Shown here piece by piece: positions 4,038 to 11,222 of a stretch of 11,727 nucleotides of DNA. The notes beneath the pieces are model-generated. The model saw nothing but the letters and a program-made list of their open reading frames with translations. It was not told the origin of the DNA and ran no database searches. Position numbers and translations under genes: made by a program. How positions within the stretch are numbered: position 1 is the stretch's first letter; every line of letters begins with the position of its first letter. The stretch comes from Acidobacteriota bacterium (GTDB lineage Bacteria > Acidobacteriota > UBA4820 > DSQY01), in assembly GCA_022759065.1 (NCBI GenBank), contig JAEMPZ010000229.1:1-11727 (forward strand), given 5' to 3'.

Positions 4038-4973
4038 TCAATCCAAATCGCCTTCGGCGAACATCAGCCGCAGGATGGCGGCCTTCTGCGCGTGCAACCT
4101 GTTTTCGGCTTCGTCGAAGACGACCGACTGCTCGGACTCGATGACTTCGTCGGTGACCTCCTCGCCCCTGTGGGCGGGAAGGCAATGTAGGAAGATCGCG
4201 TCCTCTTTAGCTTTTGCCATGAGCGCGGCGTTGACCTGGTAAGGGGCGAATATCTTCTTGCGCTCCTCCGCCTCTTTTTCCTGGCCCATCGAGGCCCAGA
4301 CATCGGTATATATGACGTCGGCGCCCTTAACACCCTCGTCAATGTCATTGGTCACGGCCATCTTCGCGCCAAGGGCCTTTCCCGCTTCTTGCGCCGCCTT
4401 GACTATGCCGGCGTTCGGCTCGTAGCCCTTGGGGCAGACGACGGTGACGCTGACTCCGGTCTTGGCGCCGCAATTCATGAGCGAGTGGGCGACGTTGTTG
4501 CCATCGCCGACGAAAGCCAGCTTGAGCCCCCGCAACTGCTCCTTCTTCTCCATGATGGTGAGGTAGTCGGCGAGCGCCTGGCACGGGTGCAGAAGGTCGC
4601 TTAGGGCGTTGATCACTGGCGCCTCCGCGTACTCTGCCAGCGTCAGGATGCTCTGGTGCGAGAATGTCCGCGCCATGATGATGTCAACCATTCGGTCGAG
4701 CGTGCGGGCTATGTCTGGGACGCTTTCGCGCTTGCCAAGCGAGATGTCGCTGGGGCCCAGATAAATGGCGTGGCCGCCAAGCTGGGTCATGCCGGCCTCA
4801 AAGCTGACCCTCGTGCGCAACGACGGCTTCTCGAAGATCATGGCCATTGTCAGCCCAGTGAGGCTGTCGCAGTAATCCTCCGGGTTTGCCTTCAGTTTTA
4901 GCGCCAAATCAAAAATGCCCTGAACGTTTTCCGCGCTCAGGTCCGCGATCGAGATGAGATCTTTACCGTACAT
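4038..4973 (-). CDS. argF: Ornithine carbamoyltransferase
   Basis: The enzyme catalyses carbamoyl phosphate + ornithine to citrulline + phosphate in arginine synthesis, or the reverse in the arginine deiminase route. The 311-residue protein has every landmark: the carbamoyl phosphate loop SLRTR (51-55), HPCQALAD (129-136), FVGDGNN (154-160), the ornithine-side SMG loop (228-230) and HCLPAHRG (263-270, catalytic Cys265). Length is typical. The start has AAGGGAG about 7 nt upstream. The first 37 nt overlap the 3' end of arcC in another frame, so translation is probably coupled. Pairing with carbamate kinase suggests a catabolic or reversible role, but anabolic and catabolic forms cannot be told apart by eye, so the symbol argF rather than arcB is a convention. 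Confidence 0.96.
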   Translation of the reverse strand: MYGKDLISIADLSAENVQGIFDLALKLKANPEDYCDSLTGLTMAMIFEKPSLRTRVSFEAGMTQLGGHAIYLGPSDISLGKRESVPDIARTLDRMVDIIMARTFSHQSILTLAEYAEAPVINALSDLLHPCQALADYLTIMEKKEQLRGLKLAFVGDGNNVAHSLMNCGAKTGVSVTVVCPKGYEPNAGIVKAAQEAGKALGAKMAVTNDIDEGVKGADVIYTDVWASMGQEKEAEERKKIFAPYQVNAALMAKAKEDAIFLHCLPAHRGEEVTDEVIESEQSVVFDEAENRLHAQKAAILRLMFAEGDLD

Positions 4974-5944
4974 GGCAGACTCCCTTGGTCTTCTGTTTTC
5001 TTTTTTTCGTGGACGATGCGCGTCCCGGCCTTCCCAAGGACGGCTTCTTTCAAGTTGGCCGCGTCGGTCAGAACGACGGAGCCTCCCTGGCGTACCAGGA
5101 ATTGAACGGCTGCCTCGACCTTCGGCCCCATCGAGCCTGGCGGAAACTGTCCCTGCTTCTGGTACTCAAGGATCTCCTCCAGGCTGACGACGCCAAGCGC
5201 CTTCTGGCTGGGCTTGCCGAAATCAACGTAGATGCACGGCACCGAGGTGAGGAATATCAGATCATCAACTTCCAGCTCGCAGGCCAGGAGCACGGAGGTT
5301 CGGTCCTTGTCTATGACCGCCTCGACCCCTTTGTGCGTGCCGTCGAGCTGGCGGACTACCGGTATGCCGCCGCCGCCGCCAGCGGTGATAAGGGCCCCGG
5401 TGTTGTAAAGCGCCTTTAGCGCGCCGATCCCAAGGATTCGCTTGGGCTTGGGCGACGCGACGACTTTCCTGTACCCGCGGCCGCTATCCTCGACCATGGC
5501 CCACCGCTCGACCTCCATGAGGTGTTTGGCGCGGTAGGCCGTATAGAACGGGCCGATAGGCTTGGTCGGGTTGCGAAACGCCGGGTCCTCCGCGTCAACT
5601 TCCACCTGGGTGAGGACTGAAAGAAGATCGCGGCCGTCTCCGTGAAGCTGGAGTTCGTTGCTGAACGCCTTTTCTATGATGTAGCCCATCGAGCCCTGGG
5701 TCTCGGCCACGCAAACGTCGAGGGGGAGGGGCGGGACCTTTGTCACCGCCTCCTCCACCCTGATTAGGTTTTGTCCGACCTGCGGGCCGTTGCCGTGGAC
5801 AAACATCATGTGGCTGTATGAGCCGAGCATCGGCACGAGCGCCCTGGCGGCCTCGGCCGCGTTGGCGATCTGCTCGTGAATCGTGCCTTTCTCGTTGGCC
5901 TTTATCAGCGCGTTGCCGCCGAAGGCCACCAGTCCGCGGCGCAT
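4937..5944 (-). CDS. arcC: Carbamate kinase
   Basis: Carbamate kinase transfers phosphate between carbamoyl phosphate and ADP, giving ATP plus carbamate (or the reverse). It belongs to the amino acid kinase fold. The 335-residue product has GGNAL (9-13), HGNGPQVG (50-57), TAGGGGGIPV (187-196), VIDKDR (210-215, active-site Lys) and GSMGPKVEAA (270-279). The family normally ends near GT-R-I (308-310). Here about 25 more residues (Lys-rich, then polar) run into argF. The frame is open upstream to 6019, but the ATG at 5944 gives the family N-terminus, with AGGT about 9 nt before it, only 7 nt after the GTPase stop. At 5006-5000 the codons GAA AAA AAG form a canonical A-AAA-AAG slippery site. Confidence 0.95.
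   Translation of the reverse strand: MRRGLVAFGGNALIKANEKGTIHEQIANAAEAARALVPMLGSYSHMMFVHGNGPQVGQNLIRVEEAVTKVPPLPLDVCVAETQGSMGYIIEKAFSNELQLHGDGRDLLSVLTQVEVDAEDPAFRNPTKPIGPFYTAYRAKHLMEVERWAMVEDSGRGYRKVVASPKPKRILGIGALKALYNTGALITAGGGGGIPVVRQLDGTHKGVEAVIDKDRTSVLLACELEVDDLIFLTSVPCIYVDFGKPSQKALGVVSLEEILEYQKQGQFPPGSMGPKVEAAVQFLVRQGGSVVLTDAANLKEAVLGKAGTRIVHEKKKTEDQGSLPCTVKISSRSRT
5000..5006 (-). promoter_or_regulatory. Candidate -1 frameshift heptamer A-AAA-AAG at the end of arcC
   Basis: On the minus strand the arcC codons read GAA AAA AAG AAA. This puts A-AAA-AAG in the exact phase used for -1 slippage in E. coli dnaX. The -1 frame is the argF frame, and it has no stop between the heptamer and the argF ATG, so slippage would give an arcC-argF fusion protein. 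A strong downstream hairpin is not evident. The GGGAAGG upstream is farther than the ideal distance for a stimulating Shine-Dalgarno. It could be chance in an A-rich linker. Confidence 0.35.
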
Positions 5945-5951
5945 GGCTTGG

Positions 5952-7274
5952 TTACCTGATGAACTTCTTGGCCCGAAGGACCGTTTCCAGCGTCGGCTCG
6001 CCGATTTCCTGCAAGTCATACCCGACCCTGACGGAGGGCTTGTTGATCTTTATGATGCGTCCGAGGTCAATCGGCGTGGCGATTATGATCAGGTCGCACT
6101 TTGAAGCGTTGATCGTCTTTTCGAGGTCCTTCATCTGCTCTTTGCCGTAACCCATGGCTGGAAGCAGGATGCCGATGTCCGGATATTTCTCGTAGGTTTC
6201 GCGGATGGAAGCGACCGCGAAGGGGCGGGGGTCAACGAGTTCGGCGGCGCCGTACTTGCGGGCGGCCATCACGCCGGCGCCGTACTGCATTTCTCCGTGG
6301 GTGAGAGTCGGGCCGTCCTCGACCACGAGGACCCTCTTGCCGCGAATCTTTTCGGCGTTGGCGACGGTCAGCGGCGAGGCGGCGTCAACCACGATGGCCT
6401 TGGGATTGACCTGCGCGATGTTGTAGCGGACCTCTTCGATGTTATCGGCGTCGGCGGTGTCAATCTTGTTGATGACGATGACGTCGGCCCTGCGGGTGTT
6501 GGTCTCTCCAGGATAATAGGAGACCTCGTGGCCCGGGCGGTGGGGGTCAACCACCACGATTTCAAGATCGGACTTGAAGAAGGGCATGTCGTTGTTGCCG
6601 CCGTCCCAAAGAATGATGTCGGCCTCCTTCTCGGCCTCGCGGAGGATCGCTTCGTAGTCAACGCCGGCGTAGATGATGACGCCGCGGACGATGTGCGGCT
6701 CGTACTCCTCGCGCTCCTCTATCGTGCACTTGTGCTTGTCAAGGTCCGCCAACGTGGCGAAGCGCTGCACCTTCTGCTTCTCAAGATCGCCGTATGGCAT
6801 CGGGTGGCGCACAGCCACCACCTTTTTGCCGGCCTTTTGGAGAATATCGGCGACCCGCCGGGTCGTCTGGCTCTTGCCGCACCCGGTTCGCACGGCGCAG
6901 ATGGAGATGACCGGCTTTGACGACTTGACCATGGTGTGGTCCGGCCCCATCATCATGAAGTCGGCTCCGGCCGCCATCGCGATAGACGCCTTGTGCATGA
7001 CGTTCTCGTGCGACTGGTCCGAGTAGGCGAAAACCACGAGGTCAACCTTTTCTTTCCTGATAATGGAAACAAGGTCTTTTTCGTCGTAGATCGGGATGCC
7101 TTTCGGGTAGCCTTTGCCTGCCAGCGCGGCGGGATACTTCCTGCCCGCGATGTCGGGGATTTGGGTGGCGGTGAAGGCCACGACTCTGTATGCCGCGTTG
7201 CCCCTGAAGAAGAGGTTGAAATTGTGGAAATCTCGGCCTGCGGCGCCCATGATTAGGACGTTCTGGGGGTTCAT
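5952..7274 (-). CDS. COG2403-type GTPase, cyclic 2,3-diphosphoglycerate synthetase-like
   Basis: The 440-residue protein starts with a Rossmann-like segment, VLIMGAAGRDFHNFN (6-20), and continues into a P-loop NTPase region. This has TGCGKSQ (130-136) with Val where the usual Gly/Ala opens Walker A, a WDGGNND segment (223-229), a guanine-specificity-like NKID (269-272) and the conserved-looking EDGPTLTHGE (319-328). I recognise it as the family listed as predicted GTPase COG2403; related proteins carry the name cyclic 2,3-diphosphoglycerate synthetase. Reaction in bacteria is not established to my knowledge. It leads the operon with arcC (7-nt gap) and argF, which points to carbamoyl phosphate or acyl phosphate chemistry; that is inference. 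The start at 7274 is chosen over 7331 because AGGAGG precedes it by 9 nt and the proposed promoter covers the longer start. Confidence 0.8.
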   Translation of the reverse strand: MNPQNVLIMGAAGRDFHNFNLFFRGNAAYRVVAFTATQIPDIAGRKYPAALAGKGYPKGIPIYDEKDLVSIIRKEKVDLVVFAYSDQSHENVMHKASIAMAAGADFMMMGPDHTMVKSSKPVISICAVRTGCGKSQTTRRVADILQKAGKKVVAVRHPMPYGDLEKQKVQRFATLADLDKHKCTIEEREEYEPHIVRGVIIYAGVDYEAILREAEKEADIILWDGGNNDMPFFKSDLEIVVVDPHRPGHEVSYYPGETNTRRADVIVINKIDTADADNIEEVRYNIAQVNPKAIVVDAASPLTVANAEKIRGKRVLVVEDGPTLTHGEMQYGAGVMAARKYGAAELVDPRPFAVASIRETYEKYPDIGILLPAMGYGKEQMKDLEKTINASKCDLIIIATPIDLGRIIKINKPSVRVGYDLQEIGEPTLETVLRAKKFIR

Positions 7275-7448: not shown

Positions 7449-8834
7449 ATGGTCTTTATCCCGTGGATTGTTGCCGCCGTCTTTGTCATCGCCGTCGTTC
7501 TTGCCTGGGCGATGAACTACAAAAAAGTAGGCCCGAACCAGGTTCTCGTCATATCAGGCCGGACCTCCGTCGTCACAGAGCCGGACGGAACGAAGCGCAA
7601 GGTCGGTTACAGGCTCCAGGTCGGAGGCGGCACCTTCGTGGTGCCTTTCCTGGAAACCGTGGACGTCCTTCCCCTCGAAGTGATGTCCATCAGCCTTCGC
7701 TGCCCCGACGTGCTGACGGCGCAGGGCGTCCTGATTTCAGCCGAGGCGCAGGGCCAAGTAAAGGCCGCCTCCAGCGAGGCGCTTCTGCACCGTGCCGTGG
7801 AGAACTTTCTTTCGAAGGGGACGTCGGGCATCACTTACGTCGCACAGGAAGTCCTCGAAGGCCACGTGCGAGCGATTCTCGGCACGCTCGCGGTTGAAGA
7901 AATCTACTCGGACCGGGAGGAGTTCGCGCGGCGCGTGAATGCGGCCGCCCAGCCCGACTTCGAGCGCATGGGCTTGGAGCTTCTCTCCTTCTCGTTGAAG
8001 GACATCAGTGACAGCCAGGGCTACATACAGTCCTTGGGCGCCAGGCGAATCGCCGAAGTAAAGCGCGACGCGGTTTTAGCTCAGGCAGAGACGGAACGCG
8101 ACGCGGCCATTCAGGCTGCCAGGTACCGAAAAGAGGGCGACGTGGCGCGCCTTATGGCCGAGGCCGAGCTTGCCAGCGCCACCCGCGATTTCGAGGTCCA
8201 ACGCGCCGAATTTCAGTCCAGCGTCAACGTGAAGCGCGCTCAGGCCGACATAGCCTACGATTTGGAGCGCGCCAAGCTCGCCGAGAATCTCAAGCGGCAG
8301 GAATTTGCCGTCAAGCTCGCCGAGAAGGAACTGGCGGCGGAGGTCGAGGGCAAGGAGATTGAGCGGCGCGAGAAGGAGCTTGAAGCGACGGTCAAGCGTC
8401 CCGCCGAAGCGATGAAGTACCAGGCGCAACTGGAAGCCGAAGCGGTAGCTTACCAGAAGGAGCTCGAAGCCAAAGGCCGGGCAGCCGGAATTCGCGTGGA
8501 GGGCGCCGCAAGGGCCGAGGCGACGAAGGCGCAGGGCTCCGCGGAAGCCTGCGCCATGGAGGAGAAGGCTAAGGCGTGGAAGCAATACAACGACGCCGCG
8601 ATGGCTCAGATGGTGATAGAGAAACTGCCTGAGCTTGCCCGCGCCATTTCCGAGCCGCTCTCCAAGGTTGACAAGATCATCATGGTTGGCGAAAACAACG
8701 GCGCGCCAAAGATCACGGGCCAGGTGGCTTCAGTTCTAGCGCAACTTCCGCCGGTTGTTGAGAACCTCACGGGGATAAAGCTGGAGGATCTGCTGAAGCG
8801 GGCCAAGCCCTCACAGGACAAAGAGGGGAAATAG
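7449..8834 (+). CDS. Flotillin-like SPFH/band 7 membrane protein
   Basis: The 461-residue protein has one N-terminal membrane segment (about 4-21, IPWIVAAVFVIAVVLAWA). An SPFH domain follows (about 25-210, with GPNQVLVISG at 28-37). Next comes a long charged coiled coil rich in Glu, Ala, Lys and Arg (about 205-400), typical of flotillins. It ends with IEKLPELARAISEPLSKVDKI (split by eye at about 396-416), the usual flotillin terminus. Flotillins oligomerise at the inner membrane and organise membrane domains. Length is close to FloT/YuaG of Bacillus. The start follows GGAGGGG. No NfeD partner is seen nearby; instead the aminotransferase fusion gene follows after 57 bp without an obvious terminator. 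Confidence 0.92.
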   Translation: MVFIPWIVAAVFVIAVVLAWAMNYKKVGPNQVLVISGRTSVVTEPDGTKRKVGYRLQVGGGTFVVPFLETVDVLPLEVMSISLRCPDVLTAQGVLISAEAQGQVKAASSEALLHRAVENFLSKGTSGITYVAQEVLEGHVRAILGTLAVEEIYSDREEFARRVNAAAQPDFERMGLELLSFSLKDISDSQGYIQSLGARRIAEVKRDAVLAQAETERDAAIQAARYRKEGDVARLMAEAELASATRDFEVQRAEFQSSVNVKRAQADIAYDLERAKLAENLKRQEFAVKLAEKELAAEVEGKEIERREKELEATVKRPAEAMKYQAQLEAEAVAYQKELEAKGRAAGIRVEGAARAEATKAQGSAEACAMEEKAKAWKQYNDAAMAQMVIEKLPELARAISEPLSKVDKIIMVGENNGAPKITGQVASVLAQLPPVVENLTGIKLEDLLKRAKPSQDKEGK

Positions 8835-8891: not shown

Positions 8892-11222
8892 ATGCTCGCT
8901 GACAGGGTAAACAGAATCACGCTTTCGCCGACGCTTCGAATCGGGGCGCGTGCCTTGCAAATGAGGGCGCAGGGCATTGACCTCGTGGACCTGACTGTCG
9001 GAGAGCCCGATTTCCCCACGCCCGAGGCCGTGAAACGCGCCTGCAAAGAGGCGCTCGACGCCAATTTCACGAAGTACACCGCGAACGACGGGATACCAGA
9101 CCTCAAGCAGGCGATAAAAGAAAAGCTGCAGCGTGACAATGGGCTCGACTATTCACTGGACGAGATAATCGTATCTCCGGGAGCCAAGACCAACCTCTTC
9201 AACGTGGCCATGGCCGTCTACGGCGCGGGCGATGACATTCTGATCCCTACGCCGTGCTGGGTCTCCTATCCCGACCAAGTGAGGCTCGCCGGCGCAAATC
9301 CAGTCTTCGTTCCGACCCGCGAGGAGGATGGATTCAAGCTCCAGGCAAAGGATCTTGCCGCAGCCATAACGCCGAACACCAAGGCGCTGATCCTGAACTA
9401 TCCGTGCAACCCGACGGGCGCCGTTTATTCGAGGGAAGAGCTTGAGGCGCTCGCCGACGTCTGCGTCCGCGAGCAGATTTGGGTCCTCTCGGACGAAATT
9501 TACGAGAAGCTCTTGTACGACGGCGTCCCCTTTACCTCAATAGCCTCGCTCAACCCGAAGATAAAGAAGCTCACCATCGTAATCAACGGTTTTTCGAAAG
9601 CCTTTTCAATGACCGGTTGGAGGCTCGGTTACGCCGCCGGCCCGAAAGAGATAATCGCCGCCTGTTCAAAGATACAGTCGCACAACACCTCGAACGCCGT
9701 CTCGTTCGTCCAGAAGGCCGCGGTGACCGCGCTTAGAGATTGCGCGATGGACGTGGAGAGAATGCGGCAGGAGTTCGAGCGGCGCCGGAATTTCATCATT
9801 TACAAGCTGCGAGCGCTCCCCAACGTCTCGTGCTTTTCCCCGCAGGGCGCCTTCTACGCCTTTCCAAACGTGGGCGCCTACTTGGACAAGGAGTTTGGCG
9901 GCGCGCCCTTGCGAAACTCCTACGGCCTTGCCTATTACCTCCTCAAAGAGGCCCACGTGGCCGTCATTCCGGGTGACGCCTTCGCCGCGCCGAACCACCT
10001 TCGCCTGTCGTTCGCGGCCTCGATGGGCCGGTTGGAAGAGGGGATGCGCCGCCTTGAAAAAGCGCTTGGGCGCCTGGAAACGCCGAAGCGGCTCAAGCCC
10101 CACGCCCTCAACAACGTCGTGACAAAGGTTCAAAGGTATTCGGAAACGAGGACCGCCCCGGGGATTGACGGCAGGAACGAGCTTTTGGCCGAGGCCGAAG
10201 CGCGCCTCTCTCCAGATAGCTACTTTGAGTGGAACGCCGCCATAGCCGGCGCCGTCGTCCAACTGCGCACCAATTCTCCCCACCTTGCGGACTTCTACCA
10301 GGAGAATTTCTACCCCGCCCCCCTTGAAAGCGACCTTGAGCCGCACGCCGTCGTTTACGCCGTAAAGGACATTCCAGGAAGGGAGGCATCCTCCTTCCTC
10401 AGCCTCGACACGGCCACCGGTTTTGCATTCAACACCGCTTTTTATGGGCAGGCGCGTTCCCTGGCTCTGGTGCTTGCCGGCGAATCGGCGGCGCGTACCG
10501 GCGGGGCGCTCATGGCCCACTGCGCCACTTTGGACCTGGATGGTTCCGGCGCGCTGGTATGGGGGCTTCCCGGTTCAGGCAGGACCGCTGTTCTCGCCGC
10601 CGCCCTTGAACAGGAGGGGGTAAAACTTTGCGCTTCGGACATGACTCTCGTCCGGATGGGAGCTTCCGGGGTGGTTGCCGATTTTCCCGAGCGCAAGCTC
10701 TACCTGAAGGCGAAGTGGGCAAAGTACCTGCCTGAAATCGAAAAGCTCCTGGAGCGATGCAAGCTGGAAAACATCGTCACGCGCCGCGACGAATGCGCCG
10801 TTGAATACTGCAAAAGTAGCGATAGCTGCCCCTTGGACCGGGGAGCGGCCGCCTGCGCGATGGCTTCAACCAACGGCCGCATGATGCTTGACCCCTACTG
10901 GCTGGGCGCGGCGAAGAGGCACGTCCGCCGGACAAGGCCTTCGGTGGCGCTGTTCCTGGTCAAAGACCCGGTCGCCCCCGCGGCCAAAGAGCTTCCCGCG
11001 CGAGAAGCGGCCAGGTGGTTCGCGGAGGGGACGTTGCCGGGAGCCGGAGGCGGGGCGGTCCCGTTCTTAAACCCGCACCTGCCCTTCCTGGACACCGCCC
11101 GCCAGGAACTGCTTCGCAGCCAGTATGAGCGCCTCTTCGGCTCGGTGCGCGCCGTCGTCCTGAACACCGCCCTTGGCACGCCGGAAGCCATCGCCAAACG
11201 GATGTTTGAACTTGTCAAGTAA
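8892..11222 (+). CDS. Class I aminotransferase fused to a PEPCK/HprK-like P-loop domain
   Basis: This 776-residue protein is about twice normal aminotransferase length. Residues 1 to about 395 form a fold-type I, aspartate aminotransferase-like enzyme: NYPCNPTG (169-176), SDEIY with Asp201, GFSKAFSMTGWRLGY with PLP Lys236, and HLRLSF with substrate-carboxylate Arg371. Residues about 405-776 resemble the PEPCK/HPr kinase superfamily: AHCATLDLDG (542-551, compare MHCSAN of ATP-PEPCK), a P-loop GLPGSGRT (558-565) and ASD (581-583) where relatives have an acidic pair. The Walker A Lys is Arg. Cys623, 635, 640, 646 and 655 form a cluster. The ATG at 8892 is chosen (GGAG 5 nt upstream) over GTG at 8856. 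Transamination is likely; the second domain's reaction is unknown. It probably shares the flotillin transcript. Confidence 0.85.
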   Translation: MLADRVNRITLSPTLRIGARALQMRAQGIDLVDLTVGEPDFPTPEAVKRACKEALDANFTKYTANDGIPDLKQAIKEKLQRDNGLDYSLDEIIVSPGAKTNLFNVAMAVYGAGDDILIPTPCWVSYPDQVRLAGANPVFVPTREEDGFKLQAKDLAAAITPNTKALILNYPCNPTGAVYSREELEALADVCVREQIWVLSDEIYEKLLYDGVPFTSIASLNPKIKKLTIVINGFSKAFSMTGWRLGYAAGPKEIIAACSKIQSHNTSNAVSFVQKAAVTALRDCAMDVERMRQEFERRRNFIIYKLRALPNVSCFSPQGAFYAFPNVGAYLDKEFGGAPLRNSYGLAYYLLKEAHVAVIPGDAFAAPNHLRLSFAASMGRLEEGMRRLEKALGRLETPKRLKPHALNNVVTKVQRYSETRTAPGIDGRNELLAEAEARLSPDSYFEWNAAIAGAVVQLRTNSPHLADFYQENFYPAPLESDLEPHAVVYAVKDIPGREASSFLSLDTATGFAFNTAFYGQARSLALVLAGESAARTGGALMAHCATLDLDGSGALVWGLPGSGRTAVLAAALEQEGVKLCASDMTLVRMGASGVVADFPERKLYLKAKWAKYLPEIEKLLERCKLENIVTRRDECAVEYCKSSDSCPLDRGAAACAMASTNGRMMLDPYWLGAAKRHVRRTRPSVALFLVKDPVAPAAKELPAREAARWFAEGTLPGAGGGAVPFLNPHLPFLDTARQELLRSQYERLFGSVRAVVLNTALGTPEAIAKRMFELVK

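Follow-up and report, generated by a model that had tools for sequence, protein, structure and literature searches.

An aspartate-type aminotransferase fused to a probable pseudo-PEPCK domain and encoded beside a flotillin-like gene in Acidobacteriota and other phyla

The ATP-dependent PEPCKs (PF01293) are represented by structures from T. thermophilus (2pc9/1j3b), T. cruzi (1ii2) and E. coli (1ayl). We take Lys213, His232 and Asp269 (E. coli numbering) to be their metal ligands, and the roles given below to residues at other PEPCK positions are likewise assumed; as PDB titles indicate, Lys212, Lys213, Lys254, Asp269 and Arg65 are among the residues that have been mutated in the E. coli enzyme. 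The class I aspartate/prephenate aminotransferases of subgroup I-beta (6f35, 6f77, 1j32, 5wmh, 1bjw) occur in the PDB entries listed as chains of 382–475 aa without a second domain. Other described systems that bear on the present locus are the HPr kinase/phosphorylase and HprK-related kinases (TIGR00679, TIGR04352, TIGR04355) and the bacterial flotillin FloT; to our knowledge, little is established about the proteins that bacterial flotillins anchor. The protein described here shares its first half with the aminotransferases and the fold of its second half with the PEPCKs, and unlike the former it is fused and linked to a flotillin-like gene. No description of this fusion, of its operon or of a PEPCK pseudoenzyme was found among the papers listed from the open-licence PMC literature.

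A two-domain protein encoded in one frame

In the stretch of 11,727 nucleotides that was analysed (contig JAEMPZ010000229.1 of an Acidobacteriota bacterium; hereafter the window), positions 8892–11222 of the forward strand form a stop-free frame of 776 aa, encoding an aspartate-type aminotransferase followed by a PEPCK-fold domain. The single open frame had been noticed in an earlier note on this DNA, which had allowed for a missed stop or a frameshift between two separate genes. This can be excluded because homologues of equal length are common: a homologue search gave 270 proteins at E ≤ 1e-3 among 7999 scored candidates, and most of the 120 listed are 771–781 aa long. A relative is encoded on 208 stretches among the genome contigs searched, the best 80 of which were used as loci; these include Acidobacteria, Aminicenantes, Zixibacteria, Calditrichaeota, Eisenbacteria, Latescibacterota and Planctomycetota, the near relatives of the window's fusion being from Acidobacteria or Thermoanaerobaculaceae, and in all 80 the frame, followed from the C-terminal domain, stays free of stops until it reaches the aminotransferase or the contig runs out. 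Among 396 Acidobacteriota genomes, 54 contain a match at E ≤ 1e-3, strong in 42 (E < 1e-60) and weak in the remaining 12 (E 1e-3 to 1e-7). The frame measures 769–799 aa in 41 of the 42 strongly matching genomes and is truncated by the contig start in the last one, G254.

The aminotransferase domain (residues 1–395; 8892–10076, +) is matched by Aminotran_1_2 (PF00155) over residues 30–387 with E 1e-77. The PLP lysine of fold-type I enzymes, Lys236 (9597–9599), and the carboxylate-binding arginine, Arg371 (10002–10004), are both present and invariant in 140/140 aligned full-length sequences, the window's included, which bears out the earlier reading of a complete PLP aminotransferase. The best PDB match is Aspartate aminotransferase B (6f35, E 2e-105), aspartate aminotransferase A reaching 4e-104, and the class I structures listed above match over the whole domain with E values from 8e-90 to 2e-105; the cut-off of the aspartate transaminase equivalog PRK06107 is not reached (407 bits vs 617). 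The domain also keeps Thr14 and Lys99, which may be linked to prephenate use; no mention of such a link was found among the papers listed or in the passages of PMC9309667 consulted.

The second half (residues 404–776; 10101–11219, +) has the whole PEPCK fold according to Foldseek, with only PEPCKs among the 50 structural matches listed, and is best described as a probable pseudo-PEPCK or adaptor domain. In sequence it stands far from the curated families: no Pfam family was found, NCBIfam gave weak matches to HprK_rel_A (3.8e-5) and PEPCK (1.2e-4), both far under cut-off, and the domain lies below every curated PEPCK cut-off tried, from PF01293 and NCBIfam (20.8 bits vs 369 for PRK09344.1-3). 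The full-length structure model (pTM 0.54) leaves the arrangement of the two domains unfixed. Unlike ATP-dependent PEPCK, the fused domain is shorter, carries a four-cysteine insertion, is joined to an aminotransferase and has neither a conserved Walker-A lysine nor a conserved metal-ligand lysine.

Equivalences to PEPCK positions come from sequence alignments, among them a profile alignment with the T. cruzi enzyme (1ii2), and the residues were counted in 65 family members. Arg522-Ser523 (10455–10460, +) occupy the positions of Lys212-Lys213, with Arg at 522 in 65/65 members and Ser at 523 in 47/65. His543 (10518–10520, +) stands at metal-ligand His232 (His in 20/65, Arg in 37/65) and Asp583 (10638–10640, +) at metal-ligand Asp269 (Asp in 62/65, Glu in 3/65), so the window keeps two of the three metal ligands, with Ser523 in place of the third. 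The Walker A is altered to GLPGSGRT (residues 558–565; 10563–10586, +), Arg564 replacing the lysine that corresponds to PEPCK Lys254. Position 564 is Lys in 38/65 members, Arg in 21/65, Gly in 5/65 and Met in 1/65, by which a uniform Arg-for-Lys switch across the family was rejected; the tree shows four switches between Lys and non-Lys, of which at least two remain when only strongly supported branches are counted, Lys564 and Ser/Thr565 occur together in 28/65 and the Thr/Ser after position 564 is lost in 18/65. Arg663, equivalent to Arg333 of the PEPCK NTR motif, is Arg in 36/65 members. Arg588, Glu600-Arg601-Lys602, Glu626-Asn627, Asp667 and Trp670 are identical in 65/65. Beside a true PEPCK, the fused domain resembles an enzyme whose catalytic set has eroded while other residues remained fixed. 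It may still bind nucleotide, since the Walker A is intact in some members and Asp583 hardly varies. The inserted cysteines (Cys635, Cys640, Cys646 and Cys655; 10794–10856, +), conserved in 58/65, 52/65, 64/65 and 63/65 members of the alignment, form a possible metal site, which could be zinc or Fe-S.

The earlier note had described the second half as having a PEPCK/HprK-style P-loop region. The GLPGSGRT element and the PEPCK fold agree with this, but an arginine replaces the Walker-A lysine and the HprK similarity is weak: the likeness to HprK kinases lies in the P-loop neighbourhood and is confined to about 60 residues. No Hpr_kinase_C match exceeds the cut-off in 18 members searched: eight of them reach E ≤ 1, the lowest value being 4e-4, and the window's domain is not among these eight. 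HprK was rejected as the parent fold, as sequence matches cover the P-loop region only and the 50 structural matches listed are PEPCKs; a kinship to HprK stays compatible with its absence from these 50. Stand-alone relatives of 327–360 aa also exist (P0192, P0193, P0213, P0214 and P0194, the last of these named Thermodesulfobacteriota). P0192–P0194 have GTGKST, the His and DD, the four-Cys insertion not being seen in them, and a PEPCK model matches P0192 over 293 residues (39 bits), not P0194. They may be split-off descendants of fused proteins, because they fall among fused sequences on a midpoint-rooted tree. Their position there, together with the lack of a recognisable Walker A (judged by eye) in the more distant P0213 and P0214, leaves intact stand-alone ancestors unsupported.

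The flotillin-like gene and the separate PEPCK

The gene 57 bp upstream of the fusion (7449–8834, +; 461 aa) encodes an SPFH/Band 7 protein (PF01145, 1.8e-25). It resembles bacterial FloT in the Band_7 domain and scores 344 bits with the FloT model (NF058507), below the equivalog cut-off of 700 bits; differently from FloT, its partner in the module is the aminotransferase fusion. Its conservation was followed by clustering and tblastn over 81 loci (the 80 above and the window), "directly upstream" being defined as the same strand with a gap of up to 620 bp, and room to score as at least 900 bp, which 11 of the 81 loci lack. An SPFH gene is directly upstream in 63 of the 70 loci with room, lies within about 2 kb in three more and is missing in four, and the SPFH–fusion gene order is kept across phyla. 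In Acidobacteriota it is directly upstream in 41/42 fusion genomes; in G254, where the fusion stands at a contig start, the two genes are on different contigs.

At E ≤ 1e-100 the SPFH protein is present in 42/42 fusion genomes and 14/354 others (Fisher p 6e-45, a statistic that ignores phylogeny, many of the sequences being related). The 14 include G006, which has the SPFH protein, the separate PEPCK described next and, at a contig end, the first 62 residues of the aminotransferase, so that the fusion is probably present there as well. At the looser E ≤ 1e-20 a match occurs in 146/396 genomes, SPFH proteins as such being common, and in SPFH loci outside the module, read in seven genomes, no fusion was found near the SPFH gene.

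A third protein, here called X, is a divergent PEPCK_ATP protein, mostly of 610–670 aa. The four X scanned exceed the PF01293 cut-off (82.9–91.6 bits vs 26.5), as does a protein in 24/42 fusion genomes, and the two scanned against NCBIfam remain below the PEPCK cut-off of PRK09344.1-3 (277 and 281 bits vs 369). YxGExKK, the His, GK[ST], DD and NGR are kept in 16/16 aligned X in register with canonical PEPCK; the Arg65-type motif of the oxaloacetate site (TGRxxxDxF) was not seen at the aligned place, where the alignment is weak. X lies near the fusion in 45/81 loci: 24 have it downstream on the same strand, 16 upstream in reverse orientation and 5 upstream in forward orientation, while the remaining 36 have no X nearby. 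When 34 of the genomes concerned were searched as a whole, it turned up in 26 (16/24 without an adjacent copy, 10/10 with one). The window's genome carries it on a contig (C33) other than that of the fusion. A strong X (E ≤ 1e-160) occurs in 28/396 Acidobacteriota genomes; 24 of these encode the fusion, and G006, G009, G011 and G012 make up the rest. X cannot be an obligatory partner, because it is missing from 18 of the 42 Acidobacteriota fusion genomes and from 8 of 34 other genomes.

A separate PEPCK relative is encoded in 40/42 fusion genomes: the 24 with X and, among the 18 X-less ones, the 16 with a GTP-PEPCK (G145 and G231 have neither). An additional PEPCK is found in 5 of the 24 X-bearing genomes, namely a canonical ATP-PEPCK in G161 and G230, a fragment in G392 and a GTP-PEPCK in G097 and G254. 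GTP-PEPCK occurs in 0/13 genomes of the window's class, which suggests that X may act as the PEPCK of that class.

The tail of X and its absence together with the fused domain

In fusion genomes the C-terminus of X consists of a variable linker followed by a basic peptide, in forms such as RPxRPGxWRxR, RPPRSLGWR and, near the window, PLSPYITPWxxRRP. The tail was scored by eye from the sequence ends, because a single regular expression caught only 24/45. Of 50 distinct X sequences at E ≤ 1e-100, 45 come from fusion genomes and all 45 have the tail, that of G362 and L047 matching the common forms only weakly; the other five come from fusion-less genomes, and in the distant X-like PEPCKs of five such genomes the tail is absent. 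In a second set of X ends from fusion genomes it is present in 25/25 readable ones, of which 15 are new. The same tail was looked for on GTP-PEPCK and found in none of the seven genes read out of eight fetched (from six X-less genomes and a second paralogue of G343, G097 being left out).

In the order to which the window belongs, the genomes G009 and G012 encode a stand-alone aminotransferase of 397–400 aa, 65% and 61% identical to the window's, and the fused domain is absent. Their X ends at 578–581 aa without the tail. No SPFH match at E ≤ 1e-20 was found in G009, G012 or G011, the four best of 15, 10 and 5 first-look candidates, respectively, having been scored, and no tail remnant was recognisable past the X stop in any of the three. 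G010, of the same genus as G012, keeps all parts, with an X of 618 aa that has the tail. On the tree the G009 and G012 aminotransferases group together (97/97) beside G010 and inside the fused clade, because of which the joint absence of the fused domain, SPFH and X tail, read from the sequences, is one secondary loss; it counts as a single evolutionary event. G011 also has no domain, SPFH match or tail, in a genome 88% complete in which no close aminotransferase was seen.

Possible roles of the fused domain

The arrangement points to an undescribed membrane-linked metabolic complex. We lean towards a working aspartate-type aminotransferase with a PEPCK-fold adaptor that is tied to the SPFH protein and, where present, to X. 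The aminotransferase, whose activity like that of X is assumed from its residues, would interconvert aspartate and oxaloacetate with glutamate and 2-oxoglutarate. The C-terminal domain, turned adaptor and carrying the aminotransferase, would attach it to its operon partner, the flotillin-like membrane protein, as a scaffold, and where X exists the assembly would hold the tailed X by its tail. X would use or make oxaloacetate, bringing aspartate ↔ oxaloacetate beside oxaloacetate → PEP, and the outcome would be a membrane-linked aspartate–oxaloacetate–PEP node; the physical contacts, the part of X that binds each partner and the membrane location are what we infer here. A more specific version, possible but put forward tentatively, is a flotillin-anchored metabolon in which the pseudo-PEPCK on the aspartate aminotransferase recruits a true PEPCK through its tail, with the SPFH protein as scaffold at the membrane and oxaloacetate channelled. 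If true, the metabolon would contain a PEPCK pseudoenzyme and would give a bacterial flotillin a direct partner in metabolism. A gene pair kept across many phyla and a third protein whose tail is missing together with the link offer a concrete and cheap way to ask whether a flotillin acts on core metabolism. The adaptor reading would also show a PEPCK that has become a non-catalytic adaptor, and would explain the annotated "aspartate/methionine/tyrosine aminotransferases" whose second half has no Pfam name.

The main rival makes the fused domain an allosteric sensor that would regulate the aminotransferase when oxaloacetate, PEP or a nucleotide occupies the former PEPCK site. The invariant Arg, Lys, Glu, Asn and Asp residues that remain despite the eroded P-loop would fit such a role, which is compatible with that of an adaptor; taken as the explanation of the locus it is rather unlikely, as it accounts neither for the strict SPFH operon nor for the fact that SPFH and the X tail are missing along with the domain. 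An atypical kinase whose substrate is a small molecule or a protein such as SPFH or X, and in which Arg partly stands in for Lys, would agree with Lys or Arg at position 564 in 59/65 members, with the weak HprK similarity around the P-loop and with the GTGKST of P0192–P0194. Gly or Met in the other 6/65, the loss of the next Thr/Ser in 18/65 and the lack of a recognisable Walker A (by eye) in the distant P0213 and P0214 make it improbable.

That the genes are conserved neighbours with no functional link accords with the varying position of X across the 81 loci, but an SPFH order kept across phyla and the joint absence and X tail pattern speak against it, and we give it little credence. The earlier note had suggested a single bifunctional chain leading from aspartate through oxaloacetate to PEP, and its overall interpretation holds in part: the fusion and the whole PEPCK fold stand, and His543, Asp583 and Arg663 are at PEPCK catalytic positions in the window. 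The coupling of both steps in one protein is very unlikely, as the window has Ser at the Lys213 position and Arg at that of the Walker-A Lys, neither Lys is conserved in the family, and a separate PEPCK relative is encoded in 40/42 fusion genomes.

Some further neighbours deserve mention. A non-module SPFH gene in G286 adjoins an NfeD-like gene (25.6 bits vs a cut-off of 29.1), and in G022 (L149, 3592–6434) an SPFH gene 46% identical to the module's is directly upstream of a glutamine synthetase gene (PF00120, 4e-140), another flotillin-like gene beside a nitrogen-metabolism enzyme. Ten loci have a nucleoside diphosphate kinase gene downstream of the fusion (PF00334 in L095, 9144–9566), which in nine of them starts within 84 bp. 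In the window itself, genes for an ornithine carbamoyltransferase, a carbamate kinase and a CobW-like GTPase, whose role is uncertain, are clustered on the minus strand (4041–7274) and point away from the SPFH gene, and a MazE/AbrB-like open reading frame (PF04014; 11513–11727) runs past the window's end.
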